Assembly: GCF_022808715.1 (NCBI RefSeq)
Contig: NZ_JAKZKX010000016.1
Location: 1-64,000, forward strand
DNA: 64,000 nucleotides
Origin: Fundidesulfovibrio agrisoli
Lineage (GTDB): Bacteria > Desulfobacterota > Desulfovibrionia > Desulfovibrionales > Desulfovibrionaceae
Direction of reading: 5' to 3'
The stretch's first letter is position 1, and each line of letters begins with the position of its first letter. Under the pieces are notes generated by a model. It was not told where the DNA came from. It ran no database searches and worked only from the letters and a program-made list of their open reading frames with translations. The translations under genes and the position numbers were made by a program. Below are positions 20,216-39,131 of this stretch, one piece after another.

Positions 20216-20244
20216 ACTTAGGTGAATAACCTAAGTCCCTTTTT
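20212..20244 (+). terminator. tRNA-Lys terminator
   Basis: A perfect 12-bp stem, AGGGACTTAGGT at 20212-20223 with 20229-20240, has a 5-base loop and is followed by TTTTT C TTTTT. A sequence-variant copy with compensatory changes lies at 39187-39226. Confidence 0.9.
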
Positions 20245-20397
20245 CTTTTTCTGTAGTATTTTGCCCCGCCATTGCCCCGCGTTTCGAAATCGCGCCGACT
20301 CCCACGTGTGATAATCTTCGTGTCTCCCTACCTTGTTCCAGGCCCGCTTTCAGATGACTAAAGCCATTACATAGGGCTGCATAAATCGGAGGCGGTC

Positions 20398-20643
20398 ATG
20401 TTCGCACACTTCACCCTGGTTCGCCCTGCCTAGCTATCCCTCTGCCTCACCCTGGGCGTCATGCTGGCAGCCATTGTTGCCCCAGCCCAGGCCCCAACCG
20501 TTTTTCATGGCAACGTCCAATCCCATATTTACCACCGGCAGAGTTGTAGATTTTTTGACTGCAGGGCCTGCACGTCCGTCTGCAAATCCCGGGAAGAGGC
20601 CGAAAAGTCGGGCTTCCGTCCCTGCAAGGTGTGTAAGCCTTGA
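20398..20643 (+). pseudogene. Small exported Cys-rich protein, broken by a nonsense codon
   Basis: AATCGGAGGCGGTC places a good ribosome site before ATG 20398. The frame reads a signal peptide but meets TAG at 20431 (codon 12). Beyond it the same frame continues to 20643, with a mature part containing FHGNVQSHIYH, CRFFDCRACTSVC and FRPCKVCKP, a small domain with Cys pairs that may bind zinc. An internal ATG at 20461 could give a 60-residue remnant, but no ribosome site precedes it. The stop overlaps the start of the phospholipase D-like pseudogene (TTGA), so the pair was once an operon. The mature domain is intact, so the loss may be recent. Confidence 0.65.
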
Positions 20644-20960
20644 AGAAAACCCTTCTCCTTCTGGTTCTCCTGGCTCTGGCCAACTCCGCCCACGCCGCTG
20701 ACCTCATTCTTTAAGACGCCCCGGCGCAGGCCTACTTCTCCTTGAAGGGCGGCGGGAAGGATGCCATCGTTCAGGCCATCGGCGCGGCTAAGTCCACGAT
20801 CCTGGTGCAGGCCTACAGTTTCACATCCCCCCTATCGCAGAGGCGCTGAAGATAGCTCACAACCGGGGCGTGAAGGTCTAGGCATTCTGGACGGCTCAGC
20901 GCAAGCCTGTCGCTGCGGCGGCGATTGCCAGCCCAGCCAGGACCATCTGCCGATCACGCC
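20640..20960 (+). pseudogene. Phospholipase D-family nuclease, pseudogene
   Basis: From TTG 20640 the frame gives LKKTLLLLVLLALANSAHA, a signal peptide, then TAA at 20712 where relatives have a Tyr or similar codon. Reading on gives APAQAYFS, KGGGKDAIVQAIGAAKSTI and LVQAYSFTSP, typical of single-domain PLD nucleases. One base then appears lost in the C-run near 20826-20832, since PIAEALKIAHNRGVKV continues in the next frame and meets TAG at 20879. The HKD catalytic half is not recoverable. At least two nonsense codons and a frameshift make this clearly non-functional. Confidence 0.75.
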
Positions 20961-21090
20961 CGTAGAACTGAGCGCTGGCTTGTTCAACTGGAGCGTGGTA
21001 GCATTAGGGTGACCTCAGTCAGGCGATCAGCCAGCACGCGATATGCATGCTGAAACCATGCCGCGATGGACAGCACACGGAGCAGCAGTC

Positions 21091-23820
21091 ATGGCGAAGA
21101 GCACTGTCCCGGTGAAAGATAAGACAGCACATAAAACAGCCGGGTTGGTGAAGAAACCCGAATCCTCCTCAAAACAGGCCGCAGCACCATCAATCCCCGT
21201 CGTGGGCATCGGCGCCTCCGCAGGCGGCCTCGCGGCTTTCGAGGCCTTCTTCTCCGGCATGCCGACGGACAAGGATCCGGGCATGGCCTTTGTTCTGGTC
21301 CAGCACCTGGACCCCAACCACAAGAGCATCCTCACCGAACTCATCCGCCGCTACACCCGCATGCAGGTTTTCGAGGTCGAGGACGGCATGCGGGTTCAGC
21401 CCAACTGCGCCTACATCATCCCCCCCAACCACGACATGGCCTTCCTGAACGGCAGGCTCCAGCTCATGGAGCCCGCGGCCCCGCGCGGCCAGCGCCTCCC
21501 GATCGACTTCTTCTTCCGCTCCCTGGCCCAGGACCAGCGGGAGCGGGCCATCGGCATCGTGCTTTCGGGCACCGGCAGCGACGGCAGCCAGGGGGTGCGG
21601 GCGATCAAGGGCGAGGGCGGGATGGTCATGGCCCAGACCCCCGCATCCACGGAGTACGACGGGATGCCGCGCAGCGCCCTCGCGACGGGCCTTGTCGATT
21701 TCGAGCTGCCCCCGGCGGAGATGCCGTCCCAGCTTATCGCCTATGTGGTCCATGCGTTCGGCAGGCCGCCAAGTGTCGCCCTAGCCGAGCCGCAGGCTGG
21801 GGACAACGCCCTCAAGAAAATCTGCATCCTGCTGCGCGCCCAGACCGGCCACGATTTTTCCCAGTACAAGCCGAGCACGATCCGCCGCCGCATCGAGCGG
21901 CGCATGGCCGTCCACCAGACCGAAACCATGGGCGAGTACGTCAAGTATCTGCAACAGACGCCCCTGGAAGTGGAGGCGCTCTTCCGCGACCTCCTGATCG
22001 GGGTCACCAGCTTCTTCCGCGACCCCGCCGCTTTCGCCGCGCTGGAGGAGTTGGTCATCCCCAAGCTCTTCGCTGACAAGCCCGTCGGCTCCACCATCCG
22101 GGTATGGGCCACGGGATGTTCCACCGGCGAGGAGGCCTACTCCATAGCCATCCTCCTCAAAGAGCACTTGGAAAATCTGAAACAGCTCTACCAGGTGCAG
22201 CTCTTCGCAACGGATATCGACAGCCAGGCCATCGCCACCGCACGGGCGGGCCTGTACCCGGCCAGCATCGCGGTGGACGTATCCCCTGAGCGCCTCGCGC
22301 GCTTCTTCACGAGCGAGTCCGACGGCGGTGCGTACCGGATTCACAAGAGCATCCGCGACATGCTTGTGTTTTCCGAGCTGGACGTCATCAAGGACCCGCC
22401 CTTTTCCAAGCTCGACCTCATCAGCTGCCGCAACCTGCTCATCTATCTCAGCGCGGACCTGCAGAAGAGGCTCATCCCGCTCTTCCACTATGCCCTGAAC
22501 CCCGGGGGCTTCATCTTCCTGGGCACCTCGGAGACGGTTGGCGAATTCAGCGACCTCTTCGCCACGCGGGACCGGAAGATGAAGATTTTCCAGCGCAAGG
22601 AAGACGTGCGCGGCGCGCAACGCCTGGCCATGGGCAGATACATCCCCCCCCTGGCGCCCTCGGAACCGTTGGCCACAAAGACAGCGGAGAAGATGGCCAC
22701 GCCGAAGAAACTGCCCTTGCGCGAACTGACGGAACAGGTGCTGTTGCAACACAGCGCCCTGGTGGGGGCGCTGGTCGATGAACGGGGCGTGATCCTGTAT
22801 CTGCACGGGAGGTCCGGCCTGTACCTTGAGCCCGCTCCAGGCGAAGCCGGCGTCAACAACATCCTGAAGATGGCCCGGGAAGGGCTGCGCCGGGAGCTGA
22901 CCATAGCGCTGCACAAGGCCGCGGTCAGCAAGGAGGAGGTCAGCTTTCCGGGCCTGCGCGTGAAAACCAACGGAGACTACACACCCACCAACCTTGTCGT
23001 CCGCCCGGTTACCGCCGGGGCAGGGGTGAAACTGGACGAGCCGCTCTATGCCGTTATCCTTGAGGCCTCCACGCTGGCAGGCCCACGGCATGGCCACGGC
23101 GGCCCGCAATCCGGCAACGGCAAAGCGCATGACGGCTGCACCAATCCGGACACCGACGCACATATCGCATCACTCCGGCAGGAATTGCGGGCAAAGGAAG
23201 AATTTCTCCAGACCACCAACGAGGAGCTGGAGACGTCCAACGAGGAGCTCAAATCCTCAAACGAGGAGATGCAGTCCGTCAACGAAGAGCTGCAGTCTAC
23301 GAACGAAGAACTTGAGACCTCAAAAGAAGAATTGCAGTCTGTGAATGAAGAGCTGGCCACGGTCAACGCGGAGTTGCAAACCAAAGTCGCGGACCTGTCC
23401 AGGGCCAACAACGACATGAACAACCTGTTGGCCGGGACGGGCATAGCCACCATCTTTGTGGACCATCAGTTGCGCATCCTGCGCTTCACCCCGGCGGCCA
23501 CCCGGATGATCAACCTGATCCAGAGCGACGTGGGGCGGCCCGTGCGCCACATCGTCTCCAATCTGGTGGGCTACGACAGCCTGACGAAGGATGCGCAGGC
23601 CGTGCTGGACACCCTGGCCCCCAAGGAAATCGACGTGCAGACGACGGACGGCAGATGGTACACGATGCGCATCCTGCCTTACCGCACGCTTGACAACGTG
23701 ATTGAGGGCGCCGTGGTCACGTTTTTCGACATCAGCGAGATGAAGCACGCCCAGGAGCTGCTGCGCCAGGCCAACGAGCAGCTCCGGGCGGCGTCCGGCC
23801 TCCAGGGAGATCCCAGCTGA
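21091..23820 (+). CDS. CheB-CheR fusion with PAS domain (chemotaxis-type methylesterase/methyltransferase)
   Basis: This protein is about 909 residues long. Residues 30-210 form a CheB methylesterase domain with the catalytic GASAGG Ser, VQHLDPNHKS His and SGTGSDGSQG Asp, but no receiver domain. Residues 225-490 form a CheR methyltransferase with the SAM-binding WATGCSTGEEAYSI. A linker follows, then a long heptad-like coiled coil (about 690-770) made of repeated NEEL and SNEE units, and a C-terminal PAS domain. ATG 21091 has GGAG 10 bases upstream; ATG 21043 in frame lacks one. Such fusions methylate and demethylate unknown sensory targets. It lies inside the integrated element and is followed by a PAS histidine kinase, a likely signalling partner. 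Confidence 0.92.
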   Translation: MAKSTVPVKDKTAHKTAGLVKKPESSSKQAAAPSIPVVGIGASAGGLAAFEAFFSGMPTDKDPGMAFVLVQHLDPNHKSILTELIRRYTRMQVFEVEDGMRVQPNCAYIIPPNHDMAFLNGRLQLMEPAAPRGQRLPIDFFFRSLAQDQRERAIGIVLSGTGSDGSQGVRAIKGEGGMVMAQTPASTEYDGMPRSALATGLVDFELPPAEMPSQLIAYVVHAFGRPPSVALAEPQAGDNALKKICILLRAQTGHDFSQYKPSTIRRRIERRMAVHQTETMGEYVKYLQQTPLEVEALFRDLLIGVTSFFRDPAAFAALEELVIPKLFADKPVGSTIRVWATGCSTGEEAYSIAILLKEHLENLKQLYQVQLFATDIDSQAIATARAGLYPASIAVDVSPERLARFFTSESDGGAYRIHKSIRDMLVFSELDVIKDPPFSKLDLISCRNLLIYLSADLQKRLIPLFHYALNPGGFIFLGTSETVGEFSDLFATRDRKMKIFQRKEDVRGAQRLAMGRYIPPLAPSEPLATKTAEKMATPKKLPLRELTEQVLLQHSALVGALVDERGVILYLHGRSGLYLEPAPGEAGVNNILKMAREGLRRELTIALHKAAVSKEEVSFPGLRVKTNGDYTPTNLVVRPVTAGAGVKLDEPLYAVILEASTLAGPRHGHGGPQSGNGKAHDGCTNPDTDAHIASLRQELRAKEEFLQTTNEELETSNEELKSSNEEMQSVNEELQSTNEELETSKEELQSVNEELATVNAELQTKVADLSRANNDMNNLLAGTGIATIFVDHQLRILRFTPAATRMINLIQSDVGRPVRHIVSNLVGYDSLTKDAQAVLDTLAPKEIDVQTTDGRWYTMRILPYRTLDNVIEGAVVTFFDISEMKHAQELLRQANEQLRAASGLQGDPS

Positions 23821-23993
23821 ACCGCCGGGCGGGCACGAGCATGAAGGGCCGGACGGGTCAATACTGCCGGCAGGGGACATAGCGGCACGCCGCCGGGTTC
23901 CCCAAGACACACAAACGAGGTTTCGCGGATGGAGAGTTGAGATCAGGGCCGCAGTGTGCTGCGGACATTTGGAACATGCAGTAGCAGGAACCA

Positions 23994-25277
23994 GTGAGCA
24001 CCATGAAGGACACCTTGCGCAGCAGGGCGGAGAAGCTTGCCGCAACGGACGAGGCCAACGCCGGACGCGTGCTGACCCCGGAAGAGACAAGCCGGACGCT
24101 CCACGAATTGCGGGTCCACCAGATCGAACTGGAGATGCAGAACGAGGAGCTGCGGCGCGCGCTTGCGGAACTGGAAATCTCGCGGGAGCGCTATTTCGAC
24201 CTCTATGACATGGCGCCTGTGGGGTATTTGACCCTCAGCGAACAGGGCCTGATTCTCGAAGCCAACTTCACCCTGGCCGCGATGCTTGGCCAATCCCGGA
24301 GTACTCTCACCCGTCAGCCCATCAGCCGGTTCATCCTCAAAGAGGATCAGGACGTCTACTACCGCCACCGCAGACGCCTCATCGTGCCGGGCGAGAGCCA
24401 GGCTTGCGAACTGCGGATGGTGAGGAGCGACGCCAGCCCGGTCTGGGTGCGCATCGAAGCCGTCTTGGTCCAGGATGCGGACGGCGCCCTCGTGCAGCGC
24501 GCCACGATCAATGACATCACAGAGCGCAAGTGCCATGACGAGCTGCGTGAACAAATCGAAGGCATCATCCGGCACGATCTGCGCTCTCCGGCCTGCAACG
24601 CCATGAATCTGGCCCAGCTTCTCAAATTGTCCCACAATCTTACACCGGAGGAGCATCATCTGGTCGATTTGTTGTTGTCTGAGGGCAAGCAGATGCTGGA
24701 CACGCTGAACAGCTCCCTCGACCTTTACAAGATCGAGGTGGGCCAATACCACGGCGAGGCCATGAGCTTCGACTGCCTGCCGCTGGTCGTATCGGTGTCG
24801 GATACTCTGCTCCGCGTCCCCAGGCACCAGGTCATGCGCCTGGTGATCAGATCGAACGGCTTGCCTCCCGTCGCAGGATCCAGACACCCCTGCCTTGGCC
24901 AATACAATCTTCTGCGGGCGGCACTGCACAATTTGATTCAAAATGCGTTGGAGGCTTCGCCGCAGGACGCGACTGTATTTGTCAACCTGACGTCCGGCCC
25001 TGACTGCCGCATCGAAATACGCAACAAGGGCCTGATACCTCTAGACATCCGGGAAAGGTTTTTCGAGAAGTACGCCACATCCGGCAAAAGGTCCGGCACA
25101 GGCCTTGGGGCTTACTCGGCGAAGAAGATGATCGAGGCGCAGGGCGGCAGCATCGAGATGTTTACCCTGGACGAGAATGAAGAAACCAGCATCACGATCC
25201 ATTTGCCCCGTGGCGCTGGCGAGCACGAAGAGCACCGGAGAAATCCGCCGCAACCTCCTGGATGCGTTGAATCGTGA
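23994..25277 (+). CDS. PAS-domain sensor histidine kinase
   Basis: This 427-residue soluble kinase has an N-terminal coiled segment (about 25-65), a PAS domain (about 65-185), an H-box IRHDLRSP with the phospho-acceptor His near 194, an N-box NLIQNALEAS near 320 and a G-box GTGLGAY near 370. No membrane segment is present, so it senses an internal signal. The start is either GTG 23994 (AGGAA 3 bases upstream) or ATG 24003; the shorter one is equally possible. No receiver-domain protein is adjacent, so its output is unclear; it may act with the preceding CheB-CheR-PAS protein. Its stop overlaps a GTG of the following disrupted frame. Confidence 0.88.
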   Translation: MSTMKDTLRSRAEKLAATDEANAGRVLTPEETSRTLHELRVHQIELEMQNEELRRALAELEISRERYFDLYDMAPVGYLTLSEQGLILEANFTLAAMLGQSRSTLTRQPISRFILKEDQDVYYRHRRRLIVPGESQACELRMVRSDASPVWVRIEAVLVQDADGALVQRATINDITERKCHDELREQIEGIIRHDLRSPACNAMNLAQLLKLSHNLTPEEHHLVDLLLSEGKQMLDTLNSSLDLYKIEVGQYHGEAMSFDCLPLVVSVSDTLLRVPRHQVMRLVIRSNGLPPVAGSRHPCLGQYNLLRAALHNLIQNALEASPQDATVFVNLTSGPDCRIEIRNKGLIPLDIRERFFEKYATSGKRSGTGLGAYSAKKMIEAQGGSIEMFTLDENEETSITIHLPRGAGEHEEHRRNPPQPPGCVES

Positions 25278-26417: not shown

Positions 26418-26511
26418 GAACCTTGGGCTAGGGGCGGGTCAAAAACGGTTCACTTTTGAGGCGCGCCTAAGTATAGCGCGGTCATTGAACCCGAAGATAT
26501 TGAGGCTCCCT

Positions 26512-26961
26512 ATGCCCCCAAAGAAGAAACGCCAGCGTGACCCACTTAAGACTAATGTGTGTTATGCAATCGACGCGGTAGACAACTTGAGCTGGGGTGG
26601 GGAAGTGTCGTATTCAATCGCAAATGACTACTCTTCAAGCGCAAGTATTGAAATGAAATCAACAATTGTCTTTGCAAACACAAAGAAAGTCCCCATCGGC
26701 ATCGATACAAAGGTTAGAATATTCATAGCTGAAGTAAATAAGAATTCCGAGTGGGTTGGATTCATAGAGAGGCGCAAGGGGTATGTTTCGATCGTTGCCT
26801 ATGTTCCATGGAATGTTGGAAGCCACATTCACATGATTCTTTTGTCAGGTAAGGCAAGGAGTATATATTTTGACGGAACGGAAATGTTTAATAAGCGCGG
26901 ATTTATCAGTTCCGTAGGCATGTCACAGAGCATCGAAGACACGTGGGGATCAATCGGCTGA
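26512..26961 (+). CDS. AT-rich accessory gene of unknown function
   Basis: This protein is about 149 residues (158 if TTG 26485 is used). The N-terminus is very basic (MPPKKKRQRDPLK); the rest is beta-rich, with GGEVSYSIANDYSSSASIE, FIERRKGYVSIVAYVPW and SGKARSIYFDGTEMF. Its base composition is strikingly lower in GC than the neighbours (AAT, ATA and AAA codons are common), a sign of separate acquisition. It follows the XRE repressor in the same direction, the usual place for lysogenic-conversion or superinfection-exclusion cargo. No family is recognised. Confidence 0.65.
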   Translation: MPPKKKRQRDPLKTNVCYAIDAVDNLSWGGEVSYSIANDYSSSASIEMKSTIVFANTKKVPIGIDTKVRIFIAEVNKNSEWVGFIERRKGYVSIVAYVPWNVGSHIHMILLSGKARSIYFDGTEMFNKRGFISSVGMSQSIEDTWGSIG

Positions 26962-27106: not shown

Positions 27107-29389
27107 TCACTTCCCGGCGGGCATACCCTCCCCAAACAGCCCTCCCAATACCCCCTTGGGCAGTGCAAGCATACCTTGATATGCTGTCATGTTGGCCGGG
27201 TTCCTGGGTATGAGCGATTGCCAGTTCTGAGGCGGGTTGAACAAAAGGTCCGCCAGGGGGCCAGCATTCTTGTTGAAGAGATAGTCCCGGTACATATCCG
27301 CCCACCTGCTAGGGCTGAACGCCTTGCCCAAGCCCAAGGCTGACAGCACGGCGCTATCCACTGGCCCCTGCGTGGCGTTCTGCATGGCCTCCACAGCGGG
27401 GCCACCCGCGAATGTCCAGGACTGCCCACCAGTGCCTTGAGATGCCTTATGCAGCGCATCCAGGAGCCCCGTGAACTCCTGGTGTTGCTCTGGGGTCATA
27501 GCTTCACGCCACATACCCCGCGCATTGTCAGACCCTCCAAGAGCCTTTCCAATCTGTCCGGGGTAGTTGCCCATGCCGCCGTTGGCGCTCTGCTTGAATC
27601 CCTGCGAGGTCTGGAGGAGGCGACCAAACACGGTATCATTCCAGGCTTGCGGAGTGAGTGAAAGCGCCTCGCGGGCATTGGCCGCCATTGCTGGCGTGGT
27701 GGTGTTGGGGTTGAGAAGGAGGCCGGGAGCTTTCCAGGCGTTGTCAGGCGTAAGCTGCGCAACCTTACCTATCAGGCCATCCGTCAGAGCATTCACGGGC
27801 TCCGACATTTCCCGGAACCTCTGGTTCGCAGTCGAGAAACCCGGCACGTTCTGATCCATGAAGCCCATGAGGTCATTCTTTACGCTCATGAGCGCGGCCC
27901 GGCCTTGATTCTCCGACGGTTGCAAGCCCTCTATCAAAGCGTCAATGCCTTGCTTCGCCCCTTGGAGGGCTTCGGGAGTGTTCTTGGGCTGACCGTTGAA
28001 CATGATCTGCGCCTTGGCCCTCTCCAGCAAACCACGAACGGCTTCAGGCGTGTTCTGGCTATTGGTCCTGGCATCAAGCCCCTGGATGATCGGCGACACG
28101 TCCAGCGTGGTTGTCGGGGGCGCGATGGACTGCGCACCGGCCTGGATCGGTCCGGGGTTAGCGGCCAGCGGCAACGTTTTGGGGTCCGCCCACCTGTTGC
28201 CATCCCAAACCCATTCGGCAGCGTTCGGGGTAGGGGTTTGCCGCGCTTCGGGCTTGAGAAATGCGAGGTCATACAACGGGCCAGCGGTGCGCTCCCTGGC
28301 GTTTCTGGCTTCCTGTATGGCCGTCTGCGCCCCGTTGACGGTGTTCTGCCCCAGCATGGAAACGTCAGACCCGGAGGCATTGCGGCCCGCGAAGTCCTCC
28401 AGGGCATTTTTGGCCGCCGCGTTCTGAGCCTCCCCGGCTCGCTTGGCGATTCCTAGCGACTGCGGGAGCATCCGCAGCCGGGATTCAGCCGACAAAAGCC
28501 CCGGATCGCCTGTTGCCTGCCCAAGACTCAGCGGAATGGGAGATTCCTTGAGGGCTGAAGCGCCAGCTTGCGCAGCTTCGGGCGTGATTCCCTCCAGGAT
28601 GCGTTGCGGCATGATGTTGCGTAGCCCATTGGGGAACCTGTTGGCAGCAGCATCAACAAAGTTTGAAACCGCGTTCATAGCCCCTGGCAGACGGTTTAAG
28701 CCGTAGGTTGCTACGCCTGCGCCTGCACCGACCGCCCCGGCCCGTGCCGCGTCCATGAGATCAAAGGATTGCTTGGGAGCGCCCACAGTGTCAGGCAGGA
28801 CGCGCTTTGCGATATAGCTGCGAATCAAGTCATCGAGCGTTGCCGCCCCGCCCTGCGCAAGGGGGTTGGCTGTCACGGCCAGGGAAGATCCCCCAGTGAA
28901 GGGGGCTGTCGCTAATGCCCCTACGTTCAAGGCTGTTGAAACGGGGTTGGCTGCAAACTCGGCTACGGAGGACTTGCCAAAGTTCGCCGCTGCATCCACC
29001 GGGTTTGTGCCGCCCAGCCCGCCAACGCGGACAAGCTCCCCGCCGTCCTTCATGTACACGCTTCCATCCTTGATGGTGAAATCCGTGGTCGGGCGGTCCA
29101 GGGCCTTGGCAGCGATGCCGATACGCTGGGCATCGTCTCCGGCGTAGCGCAGGGCAACTAGGCTTTTGAAGTCCAAGGGCTGCACGCGAGTAGGCTTCAG
29201 GCTCTCAGCGGTCTTGCTGTCAACGGGCGGTCGGTAAAAGTTGGCCTCGCCACCAAGCCGAGAGGCCATGTCATCGGGAAGGGCAGCTTGCCCGGCATCC
29301 AGGGGGGCCGGGGCGTTGACTCCCAAAAATCCTAAGGCGGTTTGCGCTTTCGGCGTGGCGGTGATGAGGAAATCGAGTGCCTTTGTCAT
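27107..29389 (-). CDS. Podovirus-type DNA ejection / internal virion protein
   Basis: This 760-residue, Ala/Gly-rich protein has long predicted helices and amphipathic or hydrophobic glycine stretches (VGALATAPFTGGSSLAVTA, ARAGAVGAGAGVATYGLN), as in P22-like ejection proteins and T7-like internal core proteins that form the channel through the cell envelope. The region 190-560 is dominated by Ala/Gln-rich helices. It starts 2 bases after the stop of the upstream gene, with GGGATGGAAT as ribosome site. I base the family on composition, length and its place next to a peptidoglycan-hydrolase-like virion protein, so the exact homologue is uncertain. It is the last gene of the phage operon. Confidence 0.65.
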   Translation of the reverse strand: MTKALDFLITATPKAQTALGFLGVNAPAPLDAGQAALPDDMASRLGGEANFYRPPVDSKTAESLKPTRVQPLDFKSLVALRYAGDDAQRIGIAAKALDRPTTDFTIKDGSVYMKDGGELVRVGGLGGTNPVDAAANFGKSSVAEFAANPVSTALNVGALATAPFTGGSSLAVTANPLAQGGAATLDDLIRSYIAKRVLPDTVGAPKQSFDLMDAARAGAVGAGAGVATYGLNRLPGAMNAVSNFVDAAANRFPNGLRNIMPQRILEGITPEAAQAGASALKESPIPLSLGQATGDPGLLSAESRLRMLPQSLGIAKRAGEAQNAAAKNALEDFAGRNASGSDVSMLGQNTVNGAQTAIQEARNARERTAGPLYDLAFLKPEARQTPTPNAAEWVWDGNRWADPKTLPLAANPGPIQAGAQSIAPPTTTLDVSPIIQGLDARTNSQNTPEAVRGLLERAKAQIMFNGQPKNTPEALQGAKQGIDALIEGLQPSENQGRAALMSVKNDLMGFMDQNVPGFSTANQRFREMSEPVNALTDGLIGKVAQLTPDNAWKAPGLLLNPNTTTPAMAANAREALSLTPQAWNDTVFGRLLQTSQGFKQSANGGMGNYPGQIGKALGGSDNARGMWREAMTPEQHQEFTGLLDALHKASQGTGGQSWTFAGGPAVEAMQNATQGPVDSAVLSALGLGKAFSPSRWADMYRDYLFNKNAGPLADLLFNPPQNWQSLIPRNPANMTAYQGMLALPKGVLGGLFGEGMPAGK

Positions 29390-29390
29390 G

Positions 29391-31163
29391 TTATTCCATC
29401 CCGAATTGGTTGCGCAGGATGCTCGCGGCCTGATCCTGCGACAGTTGACCAGACTGGAAGGCCGCCTTCACGTCGTCAGGGGTCTTGAAGGAAGGTGATG
29501 CTGGGGCTGGTCCCGCACCGATGTCAGACGGGGTTGCCTGCTTCCTGCCTGGGCGTTCGTCCTCCAGTCGCTTCGCCTGCGCCTGATTCCAGCCAGCCAG
29601 ACGGCCTTCATAGTCGGCGTAGTCCTTGAGGCCGGTGAAGTGCTGCTGTTTTTGAAGCGCCAGCCCTGATTCGGTGCGGGCTATCTCCATGAGGCGGCGG
29701 TTGACCTCTGGCAGGTTCTGGGGGCTGATGTTCATGCTCTCGATCGACCGGCGGTCGGCATCCGAGAAGTTGGTGTGGAAGGCCGTGGTGTTCTGCACGA
29801 TAGGCAAGAGCATACGGGCAGAGAGCGCCTGTAACGTGTTGATGTCGTTAGCGGACTCAATGAGTCCTCCGAGTTGTCCGCCGAGCCCGAGCGCCTGCGC
29901 CAGGCCACCCACCGTCTTCTTAATGTTGGATAGCGAACCCGAGGCGTCCAGCAGCGGTTCGGCATGGTTCAAGATCGTCAATGTCTTGAGCGCCCCGTCT
30001 GCATCCTTGGCGATCTGCACACGTGCGTCATTGAAAATCTTGGCTTGCTCCTTGGCGGAAGCTTCCTGTTCAGGGGGCATGTTTACGTTGACGCTTTGGG
30101 TCGAGTTGGCCTGGTTGTATTCTTTCACAAGCGCAGATTCAGTTCGGTTGCCGGGGTCGAAGTCGCGCCCAAACTTGATCTTGAACCACTGCGCCCCGTC
30201 GAGCTTCTCCGGGATGTCGCGCTTGGTGATATCCTGAATGAGCTTAGCGGAGTTCAGGGCGTCTATGGCGGGCTTATAGCCCATCCCGGCCAGCGTACTG
30301 ATCTGATCGCGCCTATTAGGGTCCGTGAACCACGCCGGGAGATGCGCAGATGGCTGGTATGGCTGCTGGGGCCTTGGTGCCCCGGTCGCGTCCGTAGCTG
30401 TCCCGGTGTTGTTGGCAGCGTATTGCGCTCCCTGGGCTGATTGCATGGGCTGCGCGGGGAACCAACCCATAGGGACTTCCCCGAGGCCGGTAGCCTTCGC
30501 CAGCACGGAAGGATTGACCCCCCCGGCGCTGCCTTCCTGCTGCATCATGGCCCGCGTCACGCCAAAGCGCGTCATGGGGTCATTCCAGTCAAGTGGCTGG
30601 TGAACGTCCAGCCCGGTCATCTGCGCTACATTGGCCGAATATGCTTCCGGGTTGTTGTTGCCGTCTCCAGCAGGGGCGTAACGGCTAACTATCTTCCAGA
30701 TGGTGTTGTGCCCGCCCTGGTTGTATCTGCCCAAGAGGTCCACCATCGCTTGCGTTCCAGCCTCCATGCTGGGGAAAGCCTGGAAAGCATTTTGCCCAGG
30801 AACCCTGATATTTCCAGGGTTGTTGTTTCGCTGCCAGATGGGCGCGCTTCCGCCCGTGCTGGGAGATGTCCAACTCAGGGGAGCGCTCTGCTGGGTGGAG
30901 AAGGGCGGCGAAGGCTGCGAATACACTGGGCTGTTTTCACCTGTGATGATGGACATGAAGTAGCGGTTCTTCTTGAGTTCTTCCGCCAGCTTTTGCGTCT
31001 CCATATCCTTGAGCGCGGAGGTAATCTCCATGCCCTTGTCTTCGCGGTCAGCAGCACGACGCATAAGACCAAGCTTTTCGTTTTGGAACTGGCGATCCAG
31101 GCCCCTGTCCAGGCCCTGCGAGAATCCCATGAGGCCCATGCCGATATCGTTTAGGATGCTCAT
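29391..31163 (-). CDS. Internal virion protein with lysozyme-like domain
   Basis: This is a 590-residue protein. Residues about 100-215 contain NNNPGNIRVPGQ, MEAGTQAMVDLLGRY and TIWKIVSRYAPAGDGNNNPE, the hallmark of phage virion-associated peptidoglycan hydrolases. The flanks are helical (ADREDKGMEITSALKDMETQ; EQEASAKEQAKIFNDARVQI), as in podovirus internal core proteins. Together with the 760-residue protein downstream it would form the ejection apparatus. ATG 31163 is chosen because GGAGG is 7 bases upstream. An in-frame GTG at 31169 would be too close. Confidence 0.8.
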   Translation of the reverse strand: MSILNDIGMGLMGFSQGLDRGLDRQFQNEKLGLMRRAADREDKGMEITSALKDMETQKLAEELKKNRYFMSIITGENSPVYSQPSPPFSTQQSAPLSWTSPSTGGSAPIWQRNNNPGNIRVPGQNAFQAFPSMEAGTQAMVDLLGRYNQGGHNTIWKIVSRYAPAGDGNNNPEAYSANVAQMTGLDVHQPLDWNDPMTRFGVTRAMMQQEGSAGGVNPSVLAKATGLGEVPMGWFPAQPMQSAQGAQYAANNTGTATDATGAPRPQQPYQPSAHLPAWFTDPNRRDQISTLAGMGYKPAIDALNSAKLIQDITKRDIPEKLDGAQWFKIKFGRDFDPGNRTESALVKEYNQANSTQSVNVNMPPEQEASAKEQAKIFNDARVQIAKDADGALKTLTILNHAEPLLDASGSLSNIKKTVGGLAQALGLGGQLGGLIESANDINTLQALSARMLLPIVQNTTAFHTNFSDADRRSIESMNISPQNLPEVNRRLMEIARTESGLALQKQQHFTGLKDYADYEGRLAGWNQAQAKRLEDERPGRKQATPSDIGAGPAPASPSFKTPDDVKAAFQSGQLSQDQAASILRNQFGME

Positions 31164-31396
31164 TAGCACGCCTCCATTGTAAGAAATTCGAGGTGCTGTC
31201 GCTGCAAGTGCTCCTTGTAGGAGTCGTAGTTGTGGAATTGTCGGGCGATGGCCTCAGCCCGCGCCGCCTCTTCATGGAGTTCGATAAGGCCCAGCCCCAT
31301 TTCCTGCTGGGCGCTCGCCACGCACCACGCAGGCACCTCCCCGGCACACGCGCACGGGCCTTCCAACCGCCTCAACCGTTTAGCCATATTGTTCAT
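31163..31396 (-). CDS. Small phage protein, 77 residues, unknown
   Basis: MNNMAKRLRRLEGPCACAGE opens a helical protein with a Glu/Ala/His-rich middle (LIELHEEAARAEAIARQFHN). The ATG overlaps the upstream stop (ATGA) and its TAA overlaps the next ATG, a tight phage-operon pattern. The CACAG cysteine motif and size do not identify a family. Confidence 0.7.
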   Translation of the reverse strand: MNNMAKRLRRLEGPCACAGEVPAWCVASAQQEMGLGLIELHEEAARAEAIARQFHNYDSYKEHLQRQHLEFLTMEAC

Positions 31397-31845
31397 CTGA
31401 TGTTCTCCCGCGCCTCAAGGGCGCTCAAACGTTGTTCGATTTCCGCCGTCTCAAGTGTCTTGCGGTGGCTCTCCAGCAACCCGGCTAGGGCCTGACCTTC
31501 GTTGGGGGTGATGTCGCCTCTGGCCACAGCCTCCAGAATGGCGCAGGTGGCTTTCGGTAGGTCCGCCGCGCACTCGATTTTCGGCAAGCCCGCCAGGGTG
31601 ACGGGCGAGTCCTTGCGGGGCGGGGCTAGCCTCTCCAGACAAAGGCGCATGGCTACAGAATCGCCCGCTAAGGCCATCTCAACGGCTTTCCTGGTCAACG
31701 TCTCGGCCTCGCCATCAAGAAGCGCCAGGACGGCTAAGGTAGCCTTGTGGCGGCTCCCGGTGGGGCAGCCTGCCGGGTTTCCCGACTGGCCGGGCTTCCA
31801 GGGGCGGCCTGGCCCCCGCTGTTTTTTCTGTGTCTTATCTGTCAT
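31393..31845 (-). CDS. DUF5681-domain protein
   Basis: This 150-residue protein starts MTDKTQKKQRGPGRPWKPGQ and has the GRPxxPGQSGNPAGxPxGSR motif of DUF5681, a basic segment found at the N-terminus of small phage proteins often next to terminase genes. The rest is helical (LARLDGEAE-like segments, ESHRKTLETAEIEQRLSALE). A role as a small-terminase-like DNA-binding protein is possible, but no large terminase follows. The start overlaps the ERCC4 gene by 11 bases. Confidence 0.8.
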   Translation of the reverse strand: MTDKTQKKQRGPGRPWKPGQSGNPAGCPTGSRHKATLAVLALLDGEAETLTRKAVEMALAGDSVAMRLCLERLAPPRKDSPVTLAGLPKIECAADLPKATCAILEAVARGDITPNEGQALAGLLESHRKTLETAEIEQRLSALEARENIR

Positions 31846-32413
31846 GTACGGATCTCTTTTGCGTGAACACTTTGCCTGCTGATTTCGATTTGCCGCGCCG
31901 CTTTCCAATGGCTTCCAGTTCAACCAAGGCTGCTTGCTCAAGAAGCGCCTCTTTCTTTTCCCGCTGGAATTTCTCTAGGGTCCAATAGGTCGCGTATTCC
32001 GCGCCCGATCGGCTCCCAGCCCACACGAACGGGCAGCGGTAGCGCACCTGAAATGCAAGGATGCTCTGTAAGGCCGCGTGCGGGTCCATCCGTGAGGTGT
32101 AGCGGTGCCGGGCTACGTCCTCCACACTCGCCTCGATCACCACGGCGAAGCACTCCAGAAACCGGGAACGCTCAAGCTCACGTTCAAAGCGCTCCCGGCC
32201 CACAGTCAGGCAACCGATAAGGTCATCCAGGGATTTGCGCTCAACCGAAACGCAATGCTCAAGCCCGGCAAGGCTGTAATCTCCAGTTGTCAGTGTCCCT
32301 CGTGTGAGGTGAGCGGGGTATTTGTCAGGAGCAAAGGGGAAGGGGAGCTGTTCGCGTGTGTCGATGATGATTGGAAGCAAGGGAGTCTTCGGGGGGTTAC
32401 CCTTCACCGGCAT
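31835..32413 (-). CDS. ERCC4-type (XPF/Mus81 fold) nuclease
   Basis: This 192-residue protein has the ERCC4 nuclease residues in order: IIIDTREQLPF (near 15-25), GDYSLAGL near 44-51, and the diagnostic VERKSLDDL followed by GRERFERELER. These coordinate two metals for cleavage of branched or structured DNA. Stand-alone ERCC4 proteins occur in phages as recombination or replication nucleases. No helix-hairpin-helix or helicase domain is attached. It lies downstream of the primase-helicase in the same operon, overlapping the 85-residue gene before it by 17 bases. Confidence 0.88.
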   Translation of the reverse strand: MPVKGNPPKTPLLPIIIDTREQLPFPFAPDKYPAHLTRGTLTTGDYSLAGLEHCVSVERKSLDDLIGCLTVGRERFERELERSRFLECFAVVIEASVEDVARHRYTSRMDPHAALQSILAFQVRYRCPFVWAGSRSGAEYATYWTLEKFQREKKEALLEQAALVELEAIGKRRGKSKSAGKVFTQKRSVHDR

Positions 32414-32654
32414 CCCCCCTGTTGTCGTATATGCCCAACAAGTGGGCGTAAGCCACGCGGTACGCCTCGCCAGACCTTACCGCTGCGTGCGGGTGGCGGC
32501 TCGCGAAGCCCACCAGGGTTTTGAAGGCGGGCTTGATGACGTGAAACCATAGGCGGTCGCTATCTTCCCCCGCGTGCTGGCGGGCCAGGGCCTCCGCTTC
32601 CTTCAAGCGCGGCTCCAACTCAACCAGGGCGGAATATGTCAGTGTCGTTTTCAT
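32397..32654 (-). CDS. Small phage protein, 85 residues, unknown
   Basis: MKTTLTYSALVELEPRLKEA opens a helical, acidic and His-containing protein (RLWFHVIKPAFKTLVGFASR). ATG 32654 has GGGGCTGAG upstream; a longer in-frame start has none. It lies just downstream of the G-rich inverted repeat and overlaps the ERCC4 gene. No family is recognised. Confidence 0.65.
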   Translation of the reverse strand: MKTTLTYSALVELEPRLKEAEALARQHAGEDSDRLWFHVIKPAFKTLVGFASRHPHAAVRSGEAYRVAYAHLLGIYDNRGDAGEG

Positions 32655-32694
32655 ATGCTCAGCCCCTTGGCAGTTGATAGCCTGTATCAATTAC

Positions 32695-35944: not shown

Positions 35945-35985
35945 GACTTCTGCCGATTTCCTCAGTCTTCACCTCCCGACAGTCC

Positions 35986-36361: not shown

Positions 36362-36589
36362 CTAGTTCACCTGCTGGCTTACTGCGGATTGCACCCACCT
36401 CATCGAGCACCCGAGGATAGCGCGTATCTCGCCGTTGCTATGCCCCTTGAGGTGCAGAGCGACGATCCTGTCCCGCAGGCACGGCCCCTCGCCCGGGGGC
36501 TCCGGGATGCGCTGGCCTCCACAGGAGCGCATAAGCTCCAGGGCCTTGTCCTTGCCCAACATGGTAATCAGGAGTTCACGCGACGGCAT
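36362..36589 (-). CDS. HTH protein (Mor/resolvase-like helix-turn-helix)
   Basis: This protein is about 75 residues. From ATG 36589 it runs MPSRELLITMLGKDKALELM and ends LRDRIVALHLKGHSNGEIRA then ILGCSMRWVQSAVSQQVN, a trihelical DNA-binding motif like the C-termini of Mor activators or Hin-type resolvases. GGGGGG is 7-12 bases upstream. It overlaps the end of the excisionase-like gene by 14 bases, so the two are coupled. The exact family is uncertain. Confidence 0.65.
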   Translation of the reverse strand: MPSRELLITMLGKDKALELMRSCGGQRIPEPPGEGPCLRDRIVALHLKGHSNGEIRAILGCSMRWVQSAVSQQVN

Positions 36590-36866
36590 CTGCACGCCCC
36601 CCACCGGCACGTGAAGATGCGCGGTGTTTTACCTCAAGCTGGTTTAGCCAGCGAATAAGAGCTTCGCGGGTGTAGGCGACCTTGCCGCCGATGACGAGTG
36701 ATTCAGGCCCTAGCCCGGCTGCGTCACGGTTCTGGAGGGTGCCGCGAGAGAAAGGCAAGCCGGGGTTTGTGTTGTACTGCGTCCAGCGGTGCCGCCAATA
36801 AAGGGCCGGTCCCACCGGGGGTTCGGGGAGGACTTCCCCCCAGTCGAAGCCGATACTGTTTACCAT
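36576..36866 (-). CDS. Excisionase/AlpA-like winged-helix protein
   Basis: This 96-residue protein has a MerR-like winged helix near its C-terminus: LPFSRGTLQNRDAAGLGPES and VIGGKVAYTREALIRWLNQL, the usual AlpA/Xis architecture. GGGAG is 8 bases before the ATG. It lies between the integrase side and the replication genes, which fits a recombination directionality factor or an AlpA-type activator. The Ala/Gly/Arg-rich tail after residue 80 looks disordered. Confidence 0.75.
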   Translation of the reverse strand: MVNSIGFDWGEVLPEPPVGPALYWRHRWTQYNTNPGLPFSRGTLQNRDAAGLGPESLVIGGKVAYTREALIRWLNQLEVKHRASSRAGGGRADAVA

Positions 36867-36953: not shown

Positions 36954-37063
36954 TTGACTCGGGGAAGGGAGGGAAGTTAAGAGGTATGTGTGACTCTTGG
37001 CTCGCTCCCTGTAGCGGCCATCCGTTTCTAGCCCGTGGGTCTGGTACACCCACGGGCTTTTTC
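36954..37063 (+). ncRNA. Second candidate small RNA with terminator
   Basis: TTGACT at 36954-36959 with a weak TAAGAG at 36978-36983 could start a transcript near 36990. An 11-bp perfect stem AGCCCGTGGGT (37030-37040) with 37048-37058 is followed by TTTTT. The terminator only works rightwards, although both neighbouring genes are leftward, so a rightward transcript must exist or have existed. It contains no open frame of note. The -10 match is poor, so the start is uncertain. Confidence 0.4.
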
Positions 37064-37087
37064 GTTGGCCGCTCCCCAGCTATCAAA

Positions 37088-37489
37088 TCATTGTTCGCTC
37101 TTCTTCGACCTCTTCGCGTCTATGCCATCGTTAAGGTTGGCAACAAAGAGCCCGCTGTCTGTGTCCTCTTCAAGAGGATAGCGCATCGTCTTGCCCTCGA
37201 AGTCCACGGAAAACTTGTCCAGTGTTCCGCGCGCAGAGACAATAATGCCCTTCTGTCGTTCAGTGGCGGGGAGCGCTCCTTGTTCTGATTGCTCGTCCAG
37301 GAATTTGAAGACCAGCAACTTCCGCTCTCTGATGTACCCAAGTTTTACGAAAGGCTTCTTCTTAAGCTCGAATCGGTTGACGGCATCCGCCGAGAAGTTG
37401 ATTAAGCCACGCGGCCAAATGGTGATTGTGTAGCTGCTTCCGGTCGGCGGAGAGTTGTCCCACTCGATGGCGTCCAGGCTTATTTTCAT
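37088..37489 (-). CDS. Hypothetical accessory protein, 133 residues
   Basis: MKISLDAIEWDNSPPTGSSY opens a beta-rich protein (LINFSADAVNRFELKKKPFV, GIIVSARGTLDKFSVDFEGK) with a charged C-terminal tail KRSKKSEQ. AGGAG is 8 bases before the ATG. It lies alone between the excisionase-like gene and the integrase, a usual spot for cargo genes. Lower GC than the chromosome. No family recognised. The 282 bases between this gene and the integrase (37490-37771) hold nothing I can support. Confidence 0.7.
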   Translation of the reverse strand: MKISLDAIEWDNSPPTGSSYTITIWPRGLINFSADAVNRFELKKKPFVKLGYIRERKLLVFKFLDEQSEQGALPATERQKGIIVSARGTLDKFSVDFEGKTMRYPLEEDTDSGLFVANLNDGIDAKRSKKSEQ

Positions 37490-37771
37490 TTGTGGCTCCT
37501 GTGCTAATGGATGTACACAGAATTTTCCTGAAAGTCAAATTGCTGTCCAAGGCGTCGCTGTGTGCGCCTGATTAGTCCAGATTAAAGAGTCCTTGCTGTA
37601 CCCTCATGTGTGGGGCTAAAATATCAAAAAAAAACCAAAGCACAATGCCCTTGTGGATCAAGCAATGGTGCGGGTTCACGGGCAACCTGTCCCGTCCAGT
37701 TCGGGGGGCCGCCCCTGTTCGGGAAGGATATTTGCCCCGGTTGTATGCGCGGCGTCGAAGAGGGGGGAGGG

Positions 37772-38986
37772 TCAACCTTGCACGAGTTGGCCGGGCTTCT
37801 TTGTGGCTTGTTTTTTATGGGATTCCAGGGTGTCCAGGGCTTGTTTGAAGTGGTCGGGGGCGAGGTGGCTGTAGCGCTCGGTCATGGCGGTGGTTGAGTG
37901 TCCAAGCAAGCGTCCGACGGTGATAAGCGGAACGCCATTTTGTACAAGCCATGATGCGAACGTGTGGCGAAGGGTGTGGAAGACAACCTTCTGACGGGAG
38001 TCCACGATCTCATCATTCAAACCAAGGTCGCTGACAACCTTGGTGAAGGTTTGGCTTATCTGTCCGACCTTTACGCCCGTTTCGGATGGAAACACCAGGG
38101 GGTTACCGTTTGCCGCAGGCTTTCGCTCTGAGAGCATGGCGCGCACAGCGTCGGTCATTGGAACTTGCCTAGTCTTGCCGCTCTTGGTGTCGCGCAGGGT
38201 CAAAACACCGCAATCAAAATCAACGTCCGGCCAGGCGAGGGAGAACACCTCCCCCGCGCGAAGTCCAGCATACAGGGAGAGTAGGGCCATGTCGTGGACG
38301 CCGAGGGAACGTTTCTTGAGTGCCGTCAAGAGCTGTTCGGCTTCCTCAGCTGTGAGAAAACGGGTGCGGCGGTTGTCAGCTTTCGGCGCGGAGACTTTGG
38401 CGGCGGGGCTGGTTCCACTGAATAAGTCGTGGTCACGGGCGAAGTTGAACAGCTGACGGATCACCGCCAGCACGTATGCTGCGCTCCTGGGGGCTCGCCC
38501 AGCATCTAGAACATTGCGCTTAATGCGCTCCAGGTGGATAGGGGCTACATCCTTGAGGGGCTTCGCGCCAATGACGGGAGAAATCCATAAGCGCCATACT
38601 TGCTCCTCTTTGGCGCACGTCCTAGCGGCCTTGTTCGTCTTGGTGAGTGGGTAGTAGCGCTCCCACGCCTGGGCGACAGTTACTCCAGCCCTTGCGGCCT
38701 CAATTTCCTCTTCTTGGCGTGCGGCTCTTGCCGCATCCGCCTCGGCGCGCTGTTCAGCCAGGGTGACAGCGCCCTTGCCGGTGCGCTTGGCCTCTTTGAG
38801 TTCCGCCAGTCGGGCCGATGCCTTGGCCTCGGTCATGCCCTCGGAAGCCCAGCCCAGCGCCTCTTCCTTGTCTTTTCCGTTCAGCTTGTACCTGATGAAG
38901 AAATACCGGTCAGGCTTCACGCCGTGCTTGCGGGTGGGGTGTTCGCGGTAACGTACTCCAGGGAATTTGCTTTTGATGTAGCCCAT
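37772..38986 (-). CDS. int: Tyrosine-type site-specific integrase
   Basis: This 404-residue recombinase has an N-terminal arm-binding domain (MGYIKSKFPGVRYREHPTRK), a SAM-like core-binding domain (about 110-200) and a catalytic domain with the full R-H-R-H-Y set: GLRAGE (Arg near 246), HTLRHTFASWL (His, Arg near 345), LGH and the nucleophile in TERYSHL near 377. Its start is 145 bases from the right attachment repeat and it reads into the element, the standard arrangement for tRNA-targeting integrases. An ATG at 38986 follows upstream bases without a strong ribosome site, so the start could vary. Confidence 0.96.
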   Translation of the reverse strand: MGYIKSKFPGVRYREHPTRKHGVKPDRYFFIRYKLNGKDKEEALGWASEGMTEAKASARLAELKEAKRTGKGAVTLAEQRAEADAARAARQEEEIEAARAGVTVAQAWERYYPLTKTNKAARTCAKEEQVWRLWISPVIGAKPLKDVAPIHLERIKRNVLDAGRAPRSAAYVLAVIRQLFNFARDHDLFSGTSPAAKVSAPKADNRRTRFLTAEEAEQLLTALKKRSLGVHDMALLSLYAGLRAGEVFSLAWPDVDFDCGVLTLRDTKSGKTRQVPMTDAVRAMLSERKPAANGNPLVFPSETGVKVGQISQTFTKVVSDLGLNDEIVDSRQKVVFHTLRHTFASWLVQNGVPLITVGRLLGHSTTAMTERYSHLAPDHFKQALDTLESHKKQATKKPGQLVQG

Positions 38987-39131
38987 TGGCTTGCCCCGCT
39001 TTTGCCCCGCGTTTTCTTGTGAACATGGGTAAATTTTGGTGAAGGCGTGTGAAGATATTTATTGCATAACAGCTTGTATGTCAACGGATTGTGTATGTGT
39101 GGGTGAAGGGAGGTGAAGCCTGGGCTAAAGA

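Follow-up and report, generated by a model that had tools for sequence, protein, structure and literature searches.

An integrative element of Fundidesulfovibrio agrisoli without recognised head genes encodes a virion-type peptidoglycan-hydrolase protein: a possible phage satellite with its own DNA-entry cassette

The genome of the sulfate reducer Fundidesulfovibrio agrisoli contains an integrated element of approximately 19 kb, which was analysed within a window of 64,000 nucleotides, the whole stretch of DNA under study. The element extends from position 20216 to 39131, exactly the interval between two 58-bp exact repeats, and these repeats confirmed the span that had been assigned to it in an earlier note on this DNA. 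The left repeat copy is the 3' end of a tRNA-Lys gene (20128-20203), the sole tRNA detected in the window, and the GC content of the element is 0.592 versus 0.661 and 0.684 in the flanks. With att-like repeats, an integrase and a primase, the locus represents a bounded integrative element with its own replication gene, as is expected of a satellite. The features of the element are compiled in Table 1.

Table 1. Features of the F. agrisoli element, in order of position within the window
Feature	Position	Strand	Supporting observation
attL, 58-bp exact repeat	20158..20215	+	overlaps the 3' portion of tRNA-Lys
Cargo: CheB-CheR-PAS fusion, 925 aa	21043..23820	+	PF01339 7e-56, PF01739 2e-52, PF13596 2e-31
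Cargo: PAS sensor histidine kinase, 427 aa	23994..25277	+	PF02518 4e-14, PF13426 8e-11
158-aa ORF, no assigned function	26485..26961	+	relative in the G261 element, 31% identity
EjB, 760 aa, putative second ejection protein by position only	27107..29389	-	directly behind EjA
EjA, 592 aa, virion-type, peptidoglycan-hydrolase domain at about residues 110-235	29391..31169	-	phrog_873 2e-21
77-aa 'RLxxLE' protein (s77)	31163..31396	-	46% identity with G139; typical small gene right behind DUF5681
DUF5681 protein	31393..31941	-	PF18932 2e-11; probable true start near 31845, because most aligned homologs begin near Met33
ERCC4-type nuclease, 192 aa	31835..32413	-	PF02732 2e-9; phrog_3490 4e-21; 76% identity with G139
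97-aa protein (s97), start of the block common to G139	32397..32690	-	62% identity with G139
Toprim primase-helicase, 793 aa	32810..35191	-	phrog_29234 2e-127; phrog_239 primase/helicase 1e-29
Two overlapping small genes, 114 and 106 aa	35188..35825	-	ORFs; no family match
HTH protein, 82 aa	36362..36610	-	phrog_836 late transcriptional activator 7e-5; HTH_23 below cut-off
AlpA/Xis-like small protein, 96 aa, weak label	36576..36866	-	phrog_66 E 0.047
133-aa protein, no assigned function	37088..37489	-	ORF; phrog_18159 only at E 0.011
Tyrosine integrase, 404 aa	37772..38986	-	PF00589 5e-33; phrog_1 2e-69; adjoins attR
attR, other exact copy of the 58-bp repeat	39132..39189	+	exact repeat search

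The integrase, the Toprim primase-helicase and a nuclease had been named from the sequence alone and were borne out by the family matches listed in Table 1; a full-length counterpart of the primase-helicase with 62% identity is encoded by another element (G270b). The Pfam scan gave no match for the 96-aa AlpA/Xis-like protein, and homologs of it with E-values of 1e-5 to 3e-24 are located near the related elements G158, G246 and G262. The minus-strand genes from s97 through EjB are all open, with neighbouring genes overlapping or lying 1 base apart. The left arm had been described as carrying pseudogenes, which does not apply to the CheB-CheR-PAS fusion and the PAS sensor histidine kinase, both open and equipped with Pfam domains; in three other left-arm ORFs the codon-position GC pattern of the surrounding genes was not seen.

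As proposed before, EjA contains a peptidoglycan-hydrolase domain of the virion type. Besides phrog_873, this domain matches records of T7-like phages annotated as 'internal virion protein with endolysin domain' and the solved chain Gp29 (PDB 9vvp; 3e-8), and it is thus homologous to internal virion proteins of T7-like phages. Short proteins that stand alone also have it (ORF lengths of about 140-280 aa, with one of 146 aa in prophage region G126), so the domain by itself is not specific to virions. A search of 285 genomes with EjA yielded matches at E <= 0.001 in 23 genomes and at 26 places, most of them covering the hydrolase domain only and many located in short ORFs or stop-containing frames, so that this search by itself gave no further cassettes.

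EjB was present in two of the 288 genomes searched, that of F. agrisoli included. It had no match in Pfam, PHROG or phages (tblastn of phages included), and comparison by hhalign with the phrog_5880-type, the G258-type and the giant ejection-type proteins, the three candidate sets used, gave probabilities of at most 0.9%; an alignment with the G258 protein over 103 columns (27% identity, E 0.069) was not significant. Scans of viral contigs with EjA, EjB and the EjB alignment likewise revealed no relatives, and the predicted EjB model was unusable (pLDDT 37). Homology to gp15/gp16-type or other known ejection proteins therefore does not back the role in ejection that had been assigned earlier to this 760-aa product, and EjB is regarded as a putative ejection protein on account of its position and its co-conservation with EjA. 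A third, gp14-like ejection protein was not recognised in the element.

Terminase, portal and capsid families were not found among the element proteins by Pfam and PHROG scans, and searches of the whole host genome with the large terminase family PF03237 and the podovirus portal family PF12236 gave no matches inside the element, in agreement with the earlier note, in which no capsid, portal or large terminase had been recognised. Moreover, neither family had a match inside the DUF5681 elements of 20 genomes. In a positive control on 13 other regions, portal queries recovered the portal in 12 and terminase queries succeeded in only two; because of this low sensitivity of the terminase sequence queries, the absence of terminase is carried by PF03237 alone. 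The virion gene set is thus incomplete in the manner expected of a satellite, with a control that is strong for the portal and weak for the terminase.

A comparable element of 20.4 kb was found in another member of the genus (G139), where it is inserted at a tRNA-Arg gene between 44-bp repeats. Its integrase is 32% identical to that of the F. agrisoli element and its primase-helicase is a different one; the six-gene order s97-ERCC4-DUF5681-s77-EjA-EjB is shared, and no head genes were seen. The EjB proteins are 49% identical, and the EjA proteins align at both ends and differ in the middle peptidoglycan-hydrolase domain, which is of the phrog_873 type in F. agrisoli and matches a transglycosylase or 'internal virion protein with endolysin domain' (phrog_342, 8e-21) in G139. 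The swapping of such a domain between podovirus ejection proteins is described in a passage of a review (PMC8954989). EjA and EjB therefore recur together in a second element without recognised head genes, though with another primase. This recurrence of the head-less block in an independently integrated element argues against the proposal that a prophage had been precisely stripped of its head and tail genes. Nor were capsid, portal or terminase genes found between DUF5681 and the ejection genes in any relative, as the deletion proposal would require.

The F. agrisoli element belongs to a widespread head-less and tail-less family that is marked by DUF5681 together with a small RLxxLE protein. 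From 154 DUF5681 loci 80 were kept, and the RLxxLE motif follows DUF5681 at 58 of 97 loci, compared with 3, 1 and 3 of 97 in the controls. Fourteen members bounded by att-like repeats measure 7.7-22.5 kb. A comparison of these with 470 proteins from 18 phage or prophage regions yielded virion-type matches in five (G042a, G042b, G270b, G139 and the F. agrisoli element), all of the ejection type: EjA homologs or the EjA domain, a giant ejection-type protein and a gene of about 200 aa preceding EjA. A podovirus portal or nozzle gene was not matched in any of the 14. For short or regulatory ORFs of four elements (G033, G262, G042b and that of F. agrisoli), further matches with the phage or prophage regions reached E-values of about 5e-4 to 1e-6, and G033 has in addition a minus-strand ORF of 979 aa that is similar to part of the giant protein of G039 (1e-33).

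The AlphaFold model of the DUF5681 protein consists of four helices (mean pLDDT 78). A fold search of the PDB gave no match at E <= 0.001, and, the best E-value being 0.47, no resemblance to a solved small terminase was seen; by its position, the protein is a possible packaging or DNA-binding factor. Only eight phage records match DUF5681, one an unannotated faecal scaffold and seven from Citrobacter (partial matches), and none of the eight is a podovirus with the layout of the F. agrisoli element. The sole mention of DUF5681 in open-access full texts concerns a Salmonella phage.

Among the 85 unique loci with at least 3 kb downstream of DUF5681, the slot behind this gene holds phage virion or ejection-type proteins in at least 14, a tape measure among them, and several of these cassettes are homologous to podovirus ejection-type proteins. 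A PHROG scan of 20 slot proteins left six without a match (two of L172, the smaller of L164, the 566-aa protein of G042a, the 358-aa protein of G258 and the G139 EjB). In the Alphaproteobacteria loci L175 and L184 the slot protein matches phrog_21712, labelled 'major head protein', and in L184 also phrog_5880; if the phrog_21712 label is right, these two loci carry a head protein. Other slots hold genes that read as restriction- or defence-like (McrBC-like in G107, methylase-like in G164, type I restriction-like in L123), and in most of the 85 loci no virion protein was recognised, for which reasons the slot may be a mere cargo site. Two loci, G214 and G215, were retained in the count despite a weak DUF5681 match; CheB-CheR and kinase genes lie near it, and we think that the match is part of a larger unrelated protein.

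The gene order of the element cassettes matches that of complete podoviruses. In phage pCB2047-A a peptidoglycan hydrolase gene is followed by a phrog_5880-type gene, one small gene and the tail fibre, and in three prophage regions (G126, G039, G111) an EjA-type gene precedes that of a giant protein. With respect to a helper, the host genome contains no podovirus portal and a single TerL-like match (C52) outside any prophage recognisable in our gene calls, so that no resident helper was identified. EjA and EjB had no match at E 1e-3 in ten regions of element-bearing genomes, nine around portal matches and one around the TerL-like match of the host itself. Inference of a helper from co-residence was rejected, since 190 of 287 genomes of the bacterial family have a podovirus portal, but only nine of the 20 element-bearing genomes do.

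These data moderately favour the view that the element is a phage satellite, packaged by a helper, that carries EjA and EjB as its own virion-internal entry cassette. Following excision by the integrase and copying by the primase-helicase, the element DNA would be packaged into particles of a helper phage, since the element lacks a terminase, portal and capsid of its own; DUF5681 may take part in this step. EjA and EjB would be made late and loaded along with the satellite DNA into helper-made heads, from which they would be ejected before the DNA, with EjA opening the peptidoglycan, and the satellite would in this way set its own DNA-entry step rather than depend on that of the helper. The slot behind the DUF5681/RLxxLE pair would be exchangeable and, depending on the member, filled by podovirus ejection-type genes, a tail tape measure protein or restriction-type genes. 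A satellite with its own ejection machinery was one of two scenarios of the earlier note; it is favoured by the ejection-type genes and the tape measure in related slots, and the missing ejection homolog of EjB counts against it, while mobilisation by a helper is what we infer from the gene content.

The defence-like genes in the same slot of G107, G164 and L123 would also suit a cassette that spoils the helper, in that surplus or mismatched ejection proteins render helper virions non-infectious, a form of anti-phage defence at the level of assembly. Systems acting on virion assembly have been published, as far as the available parts of two reports indicate (PMC10884400, PMC11364771), but several elements keep two or three cassette genes in phage order, which spoiling alone would not need, and we consider this explanation unlikely. 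It is rather doubtful that the locus is no satellite but an integrative island with virion genes as cargo, moved by general transduction or another route: the sensory cargo speaks for such an island, as do the Pfam/PHROG scans and the fold search, which identified neither a small terminase nor a capsid-remodelling family, whereas the head-less integrase-primase layout at tRNA genes, the conserved DUF5681/RLxxLE pair and the recurrence of one functional class of phage genes speak against it. A decaying podovirus-like prophage precisely deleted of its head and tail genes is very improbable, for although the EjA domain and the slot proteins of several relatives are homologous to podovirus proteins and some left-arm ORFs are not gene-like, the six-gene block is kept without head genes beside another integrase and primase in G139, the genes of the block in F. 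agrisoli are open and tightly spaced, DUF5681 elements with other cassettes also lack recognised head genes, and the phage records with DUF5681 include no podovirus of such layout.

More tentatively, the favoured satellite reading can be extended to the proteobacterial elements with DUF5681 and RLxxLE in general, which might own their DNA-entry step by means of a cassette matched to the type of helper, that is, podovirus ejectosome genes or, for long-tailed helpers, a tail tape measure protein, and might perhaps reach hosts that the helper does not. Known satellites rely on their helpers for capsids, tails and packaging and are noted for genes with which packaging is redirected or the capsid reshaped. 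Among the titles and abstract openings of the open-access papers searched, no satellite carrying ejection proteins was found. If confirmed by experiment, entry proteins of its own would be a new way for a phage parasite to exploit its helper; the DNA-entry step would then be a separately tradable part of the virion, the host range of a satellite would be separable from that of its helper, and a handle on ejection proteins outside phages would be at hand. The DUF5681/RLxxLE pair provides a simple sequence marker for finding such elements.

The phage-inducible chromosomal islands (PICIs) of Gram-negative bacteria combine site-specific integration, an integrase, small regulators and a primase-replication gene with the lack of capsid, portal and large terminase, and their hallmark is a small terminase or another gene that redirects packaging. 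The F. agrisoli element resembles them in all of the former traits and in its satellite size, but it has ejection-type virion proteins and the DUF5681/RLxxLE pair, and no small terminase or capsid-remodelling gene of PICI type was recognised. The capsid-forming cf-PICIs possess their own capsid-forming and packaging module, which the element lacks according to the Pfam/PHROG scans and the PF03237 and PF12236 searches. P4-like satellites carry capsid-size and transactivation genes of the Psu/Delta/Sid type, families not represented among the matches that the element proteins gave in the general Pfam and PHROG scans. The PICMIs of Vibrionaceae, as characterised in the available part of their description (PMC10803314), adjoin fis and have a core of integrase, AlpA-type regulator and primase without capsid-remodelling genes, the prototype comprising six genes; the element shares the integrase, the primase and the absence of recognised capsid-remodelling genes, and its 96-aa protein is a weak AlpA-type candidate, but it is located at tRNA-Lys, spans 19 kb and includes genes of the ejection type. 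Pseudomonas AH14b, a satellite of AH14a, is a 16.8-kb prophage in which head-neck-tail genes were likewise not recognised and which is packed into the helper capsid; in the accessible text (PMC4936722) the only virion-related gene of AH14b encodes tail assembly protein I, and ejection proteins are not mentioned. In T7 the ejection proteins are gp14, gp15 and gp16, as given in the accessible part of the review cited above (PMC8954989). The cassette resembles the ejection genes of T7, pCB2047-A and prophages in the peptidoglycan-hydrolase domain, the large size of the proteins and the order of EjA before EjB; however, the podovirus genes sit behind portal, capsid and nozzle genes, whereas EjA and EjB stand alone in an integrative element.

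The window element of Fundidesulfovibrio agrisoli is bounded by two mismatch-free copies of a 58-base repeat (Table), the left of which starts in the 3' part of a tRNA gene, and the span proposed in the earlier note is exactly the interval separating both copies. The GC content is 0.59 in the element and 0.66-0.68 in the flanks. A minus-strand series of genes runs leftward from the integrase gene and encodes small regulators, a 793-aa Toprim primase-helicase, a 97-aa protein (s97), an ERCC4 nuclease, a DUF5681 protein, a 77-aa protein (s77), the 592-aa protein EjA and the 760-aa protein EjB; from s97 through EjB, adjacent genes overlap or leave a 1-base gap. The left arm had been described as containing pseudogenes, which does not apply to its CheB-CheR-PAS fusion and PAS histidine kinase genes; these look like cargo rather than pseudogenes. 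Related CheB-CheR and kinase genes were also observed near weak DUF5681 matches in the host-family genomes G214 and G215.

Features of the window element and of related loci, with PHROGs assignments of slot proteins
Source	Feature	Position	Strand	Remark
Window	tRNA-Lys	20128-20203		sole tRNA gene found in window
Window	58-base repeat, left copy	20158-20215		
Window	Element	20216-39131		
Window	CheB-CheR-PAS fusion and PAS histidine kinase	21043-25277	plus	left arm; open, with Pfam domains
Window	Integrase	37772-38986		adjoins right repeat copy
Window	58-base repeat, right copy	39132-39189		
L110	Slot protein	10843-13344		tape measure, 8e-48
L109	Slot protein	3561-6038		tape-measure-like
L175	Slot protein	3770-5458		phrog_21712, labelled major head protein
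L184	Slot protein	10932-12893		phrog_21712, labelled major head protein
L147, L150, L161, L164, L184, L190	Slot proteins			phrog_5880, function unknown in PHROGs
L161	Second slot protein			phrog_6126, virion structural
G258	Slot proteins			EjA-type domain; second protein phrog_36512, unknown
G042a	Slot protein, 2204 aa			phrog_9880, unknown; relatives in podoviruses
G139	EjA			PHROG match
L084 (G042)	Stretch of G042, a genome with two elements	7426-15740	minus	
G135 (L069/L070)	Two DUF5681 genes	~172125-173679 (contig)		

Homologs of DUF5681 were detected in 38 of the 287 genomes of the host family, Desulfovibrionaceae, and 24 host-family neighbourhoods were retrieved. A scan of named genomes yielded 154 relatives, the best 80 of which were kept (79 loci) and belong, judged from titles, mainly to Alphaproteobacteria and deltaproteobacteria/Desulfovibrionaceae; viral contigs contributed four loci. 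With the window and the genome G139, the pool comprised 109 loci (102 unique). Upstream of DUF5681, an integrase cluster was present in 60 of the 109 loci, primase-type clusters in 31 and 19 and an ERCC4 cluster in 21, and no terminase, portal or capsid occurred among 16 representatives read by eye from the 61 clusters present in at least four loci. In 58 of the 97 loci with enough sequence (including some of seven duplicate loci), DUF5681 is followed on its strand by the gene of a small protein whose start bears the RLxxLE motif; the three control windows gave 3, 1 and 3 of 97. Att-like direct repeats flank 12 of the 24 host-family neighbourhoods and mostly lie within tRNA genes; those of G033 comprise just 15-16 bases, and that of G042a lies beside its tRNA gene. 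The 14 bounded elements, including those of G139 and the window, measure 7.7-22.5 kb. Two DUF5681 genes about 1.1 kb apart were observed within one 11.9-kb element of G135.

The large terminase domain PF03237 occurs in 14 and the podovirus portal domain PF12236 in nine of the 20 element-bearing genomes, and all matches lie outside the DUF5681 elements, which upholds the earlier claim of an element devoid of both genes. Additionally, 470 proteins from 18 regions were compared with every reading frame in the 14 bounded elements; 15 regions came from the host family (14 around podovirus portals or EjA-type matches, one on the contig with the host genome's only TerL-like match) and the others were parts of pCB2047-A, BPP-1 and RHph_N2. 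The sole virion-type matches were ejection-type proteins in five of the 14 elements (G042a, G042b, G270b, G139 and the window, the latter by the EjA domain only); integrases and histidine kinases made up the remaining matches, along with a few short ORFs and a single ORF of G033. When queries from three podoviruses were compared with 13 other regions as a control, the portal was recovered in 12, a large gene behind the capsid-type genes in ten, the capsid gene by position in six, ejection-type genes in one to five and the terminase in just two. Judged by this control, the portal and nozzle-type genes are easiest to detect yet missing, whereas the ejection-type genes are hard to detect yet present; the absence of the terminase relies on PF03237, since its control was weak. 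We regard it as almost certain that the window element belongs to a recurrent head-less integrative family. As a separate observation, the PF12236 portal occurs in 190 of the 287 host-family genomes but in one of seven of this genus (window genome counted), and this widespread portal is possibly of a prophage or gene-transfer-agent type.

Regarding the two virion or ejection proteins that had been claimed, EjA was supported by its peptidoglycan-hydrolase domain at about positions 110-235 (phrog_873, 2e-21; phrog_2276, 2e-19) and by 333 matching phage records, none spanning more than 80% of EjA; the 20 phage matches listed show 22% coverage and 35-37% identity, with an internal virion protein annotation given for some of them. 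Among solved structures, one chain matched, Gp29 of PDB 9vvp (3e-8). The domain alone is not virion-specific, since it also occurs in short stand-alone host-family proteins, for instance that of a 146-aa gene of G126. EjB had no counterpart in Pfam, in PHROGs or among 50,697 phage records and is a putative ejection protein by its place behind EjA.

The slot behind the DUF5681 and RLxxLE genes, held by EjA and EjB in the window element, was surveyed with 20 proteins of large same-strand genes in or near it, picked by eye; 14 matched PHROGs and six did not. The family phrog_5880 was counted as ejection or virion type because of its position in pCB2047-A, where an annotated peptidoglycan hydrolase gene precedes a relative of the L190 protein, which is followed in turn by a small gene and a tail fibre gene. 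An EjA-type gene followed by a giant gene is found in podovirus regions of G126 and G039 and in a partial region of G111; the cassette order of the elements is that of phages. Phage virion- or ejection-type slot proteins occur in at least 14 of the 85 unique loci having at least 3 kb downstream (phage record L109 left out; window, G270b and G042b added), a lower bound because only chosen proteins were scanned. L175 and L184 would carry a head protein if phrog_21712 is labelled correctly, but the label may be wrong; L184 has a phrog_5880 match as well. The second slot protein of G270b is 95% identical to that of G258, and the giant genes of G042a and G042b share 98.6% DNA identity while neighbouring stretches differ. 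The two G042 elements lie at different tRNA genes and each combine a gene of 566-623 aa with a phage-type protein of 2204-2218 aa. A tape measure (L110) or tape-measure-like protein (L109) was observed in the equivalent slot of elements or scaffolds of other bacteria that likewise have DUF5681 and RLxxLE-type genes; L109 is a phage scaffold from faeces (MT836812.1) in which several RLxxLE-type ORFs accompany DUF5681. Under a less likely interference reading, the cassette or slot would be anti-phage cargo; in other loci, the genes occupying the slot were read by eye as McrBC-like, methylase-like or resembling type I restriction genes.

EjB is present in two of 288 host-family genomes, those of the window and of G139, which belong to the same genus. 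The 20.4-kb G139 element lies at tRNA-Arg, is flanked by 44-bp repeats and encodes an integrase 32% identical to that of the window, a primase-helicase of another type and, in a far arm unlike the window's, a Fic-like protein and a nuclease (sequences read by eye). The order s97-ERCC4-DUF5681-s77-EjA-EjB is conserved between both elements, with tblastn identities of 62%, 76%, 68%, 46%, 28% and 44%, respectively, and the G139 block contains no head or terminase gene. The recurrent head-less gene set that the earlier note had suggested looking for was thus found, with another type of primase, and decay of a prophage by precise deletion is made very unlikely by the same ordered block in an element with another tRNA, integrase and primase. 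Both ends of EjA align between the elements and the middle differs in kind, being of the phrog_873 type in the window and a transglycosylase in G139 (phrog_342, 'internal virion protein with endolysin domain', 8e-21). According to a review on ejection proteins (PMC8954989), the hydrolase domain of T7 gp16 can instead be carried by the gp15 homolog. The apparent retention of function despite this domain exchange suggests that the function matters.

The window element is probably a phage satellite. Its integrase would excise and its primase replicate it, as judged from the protein families involved, and a helper would package it. EjA and EjB would be destined for the particle, from which they would be ejected along with the DNA; the chances that the element uses them for its own entry are about even. 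No gp14-like gene was recognised in the window element, which would therefore still need a helper for this part. DUF5681 could steer packaging; its structure model gave no small-terminase match. Comparison of G258 with G270b (L096 and L076/L077) shows 78-89% identity in the matched flanking DNA, and no DNA match for the larger part of the DUF5681 gene or for some 600 bases that follow it, which suggests that DUF5681 was replaced or is changing fast, as might be expected of a specificity gene. No helper phage was found, nor do co-resident podovirus prophages point to one, the portal occurring in 190 of 287 genomes overall versus 9 of 20 with elements. PICMI and cf-PICI each have a defining feature that the window element does not share, and assignment to a named satellite family is not claimed; in its way of working, the element would resemble PICI-type phage satellites.
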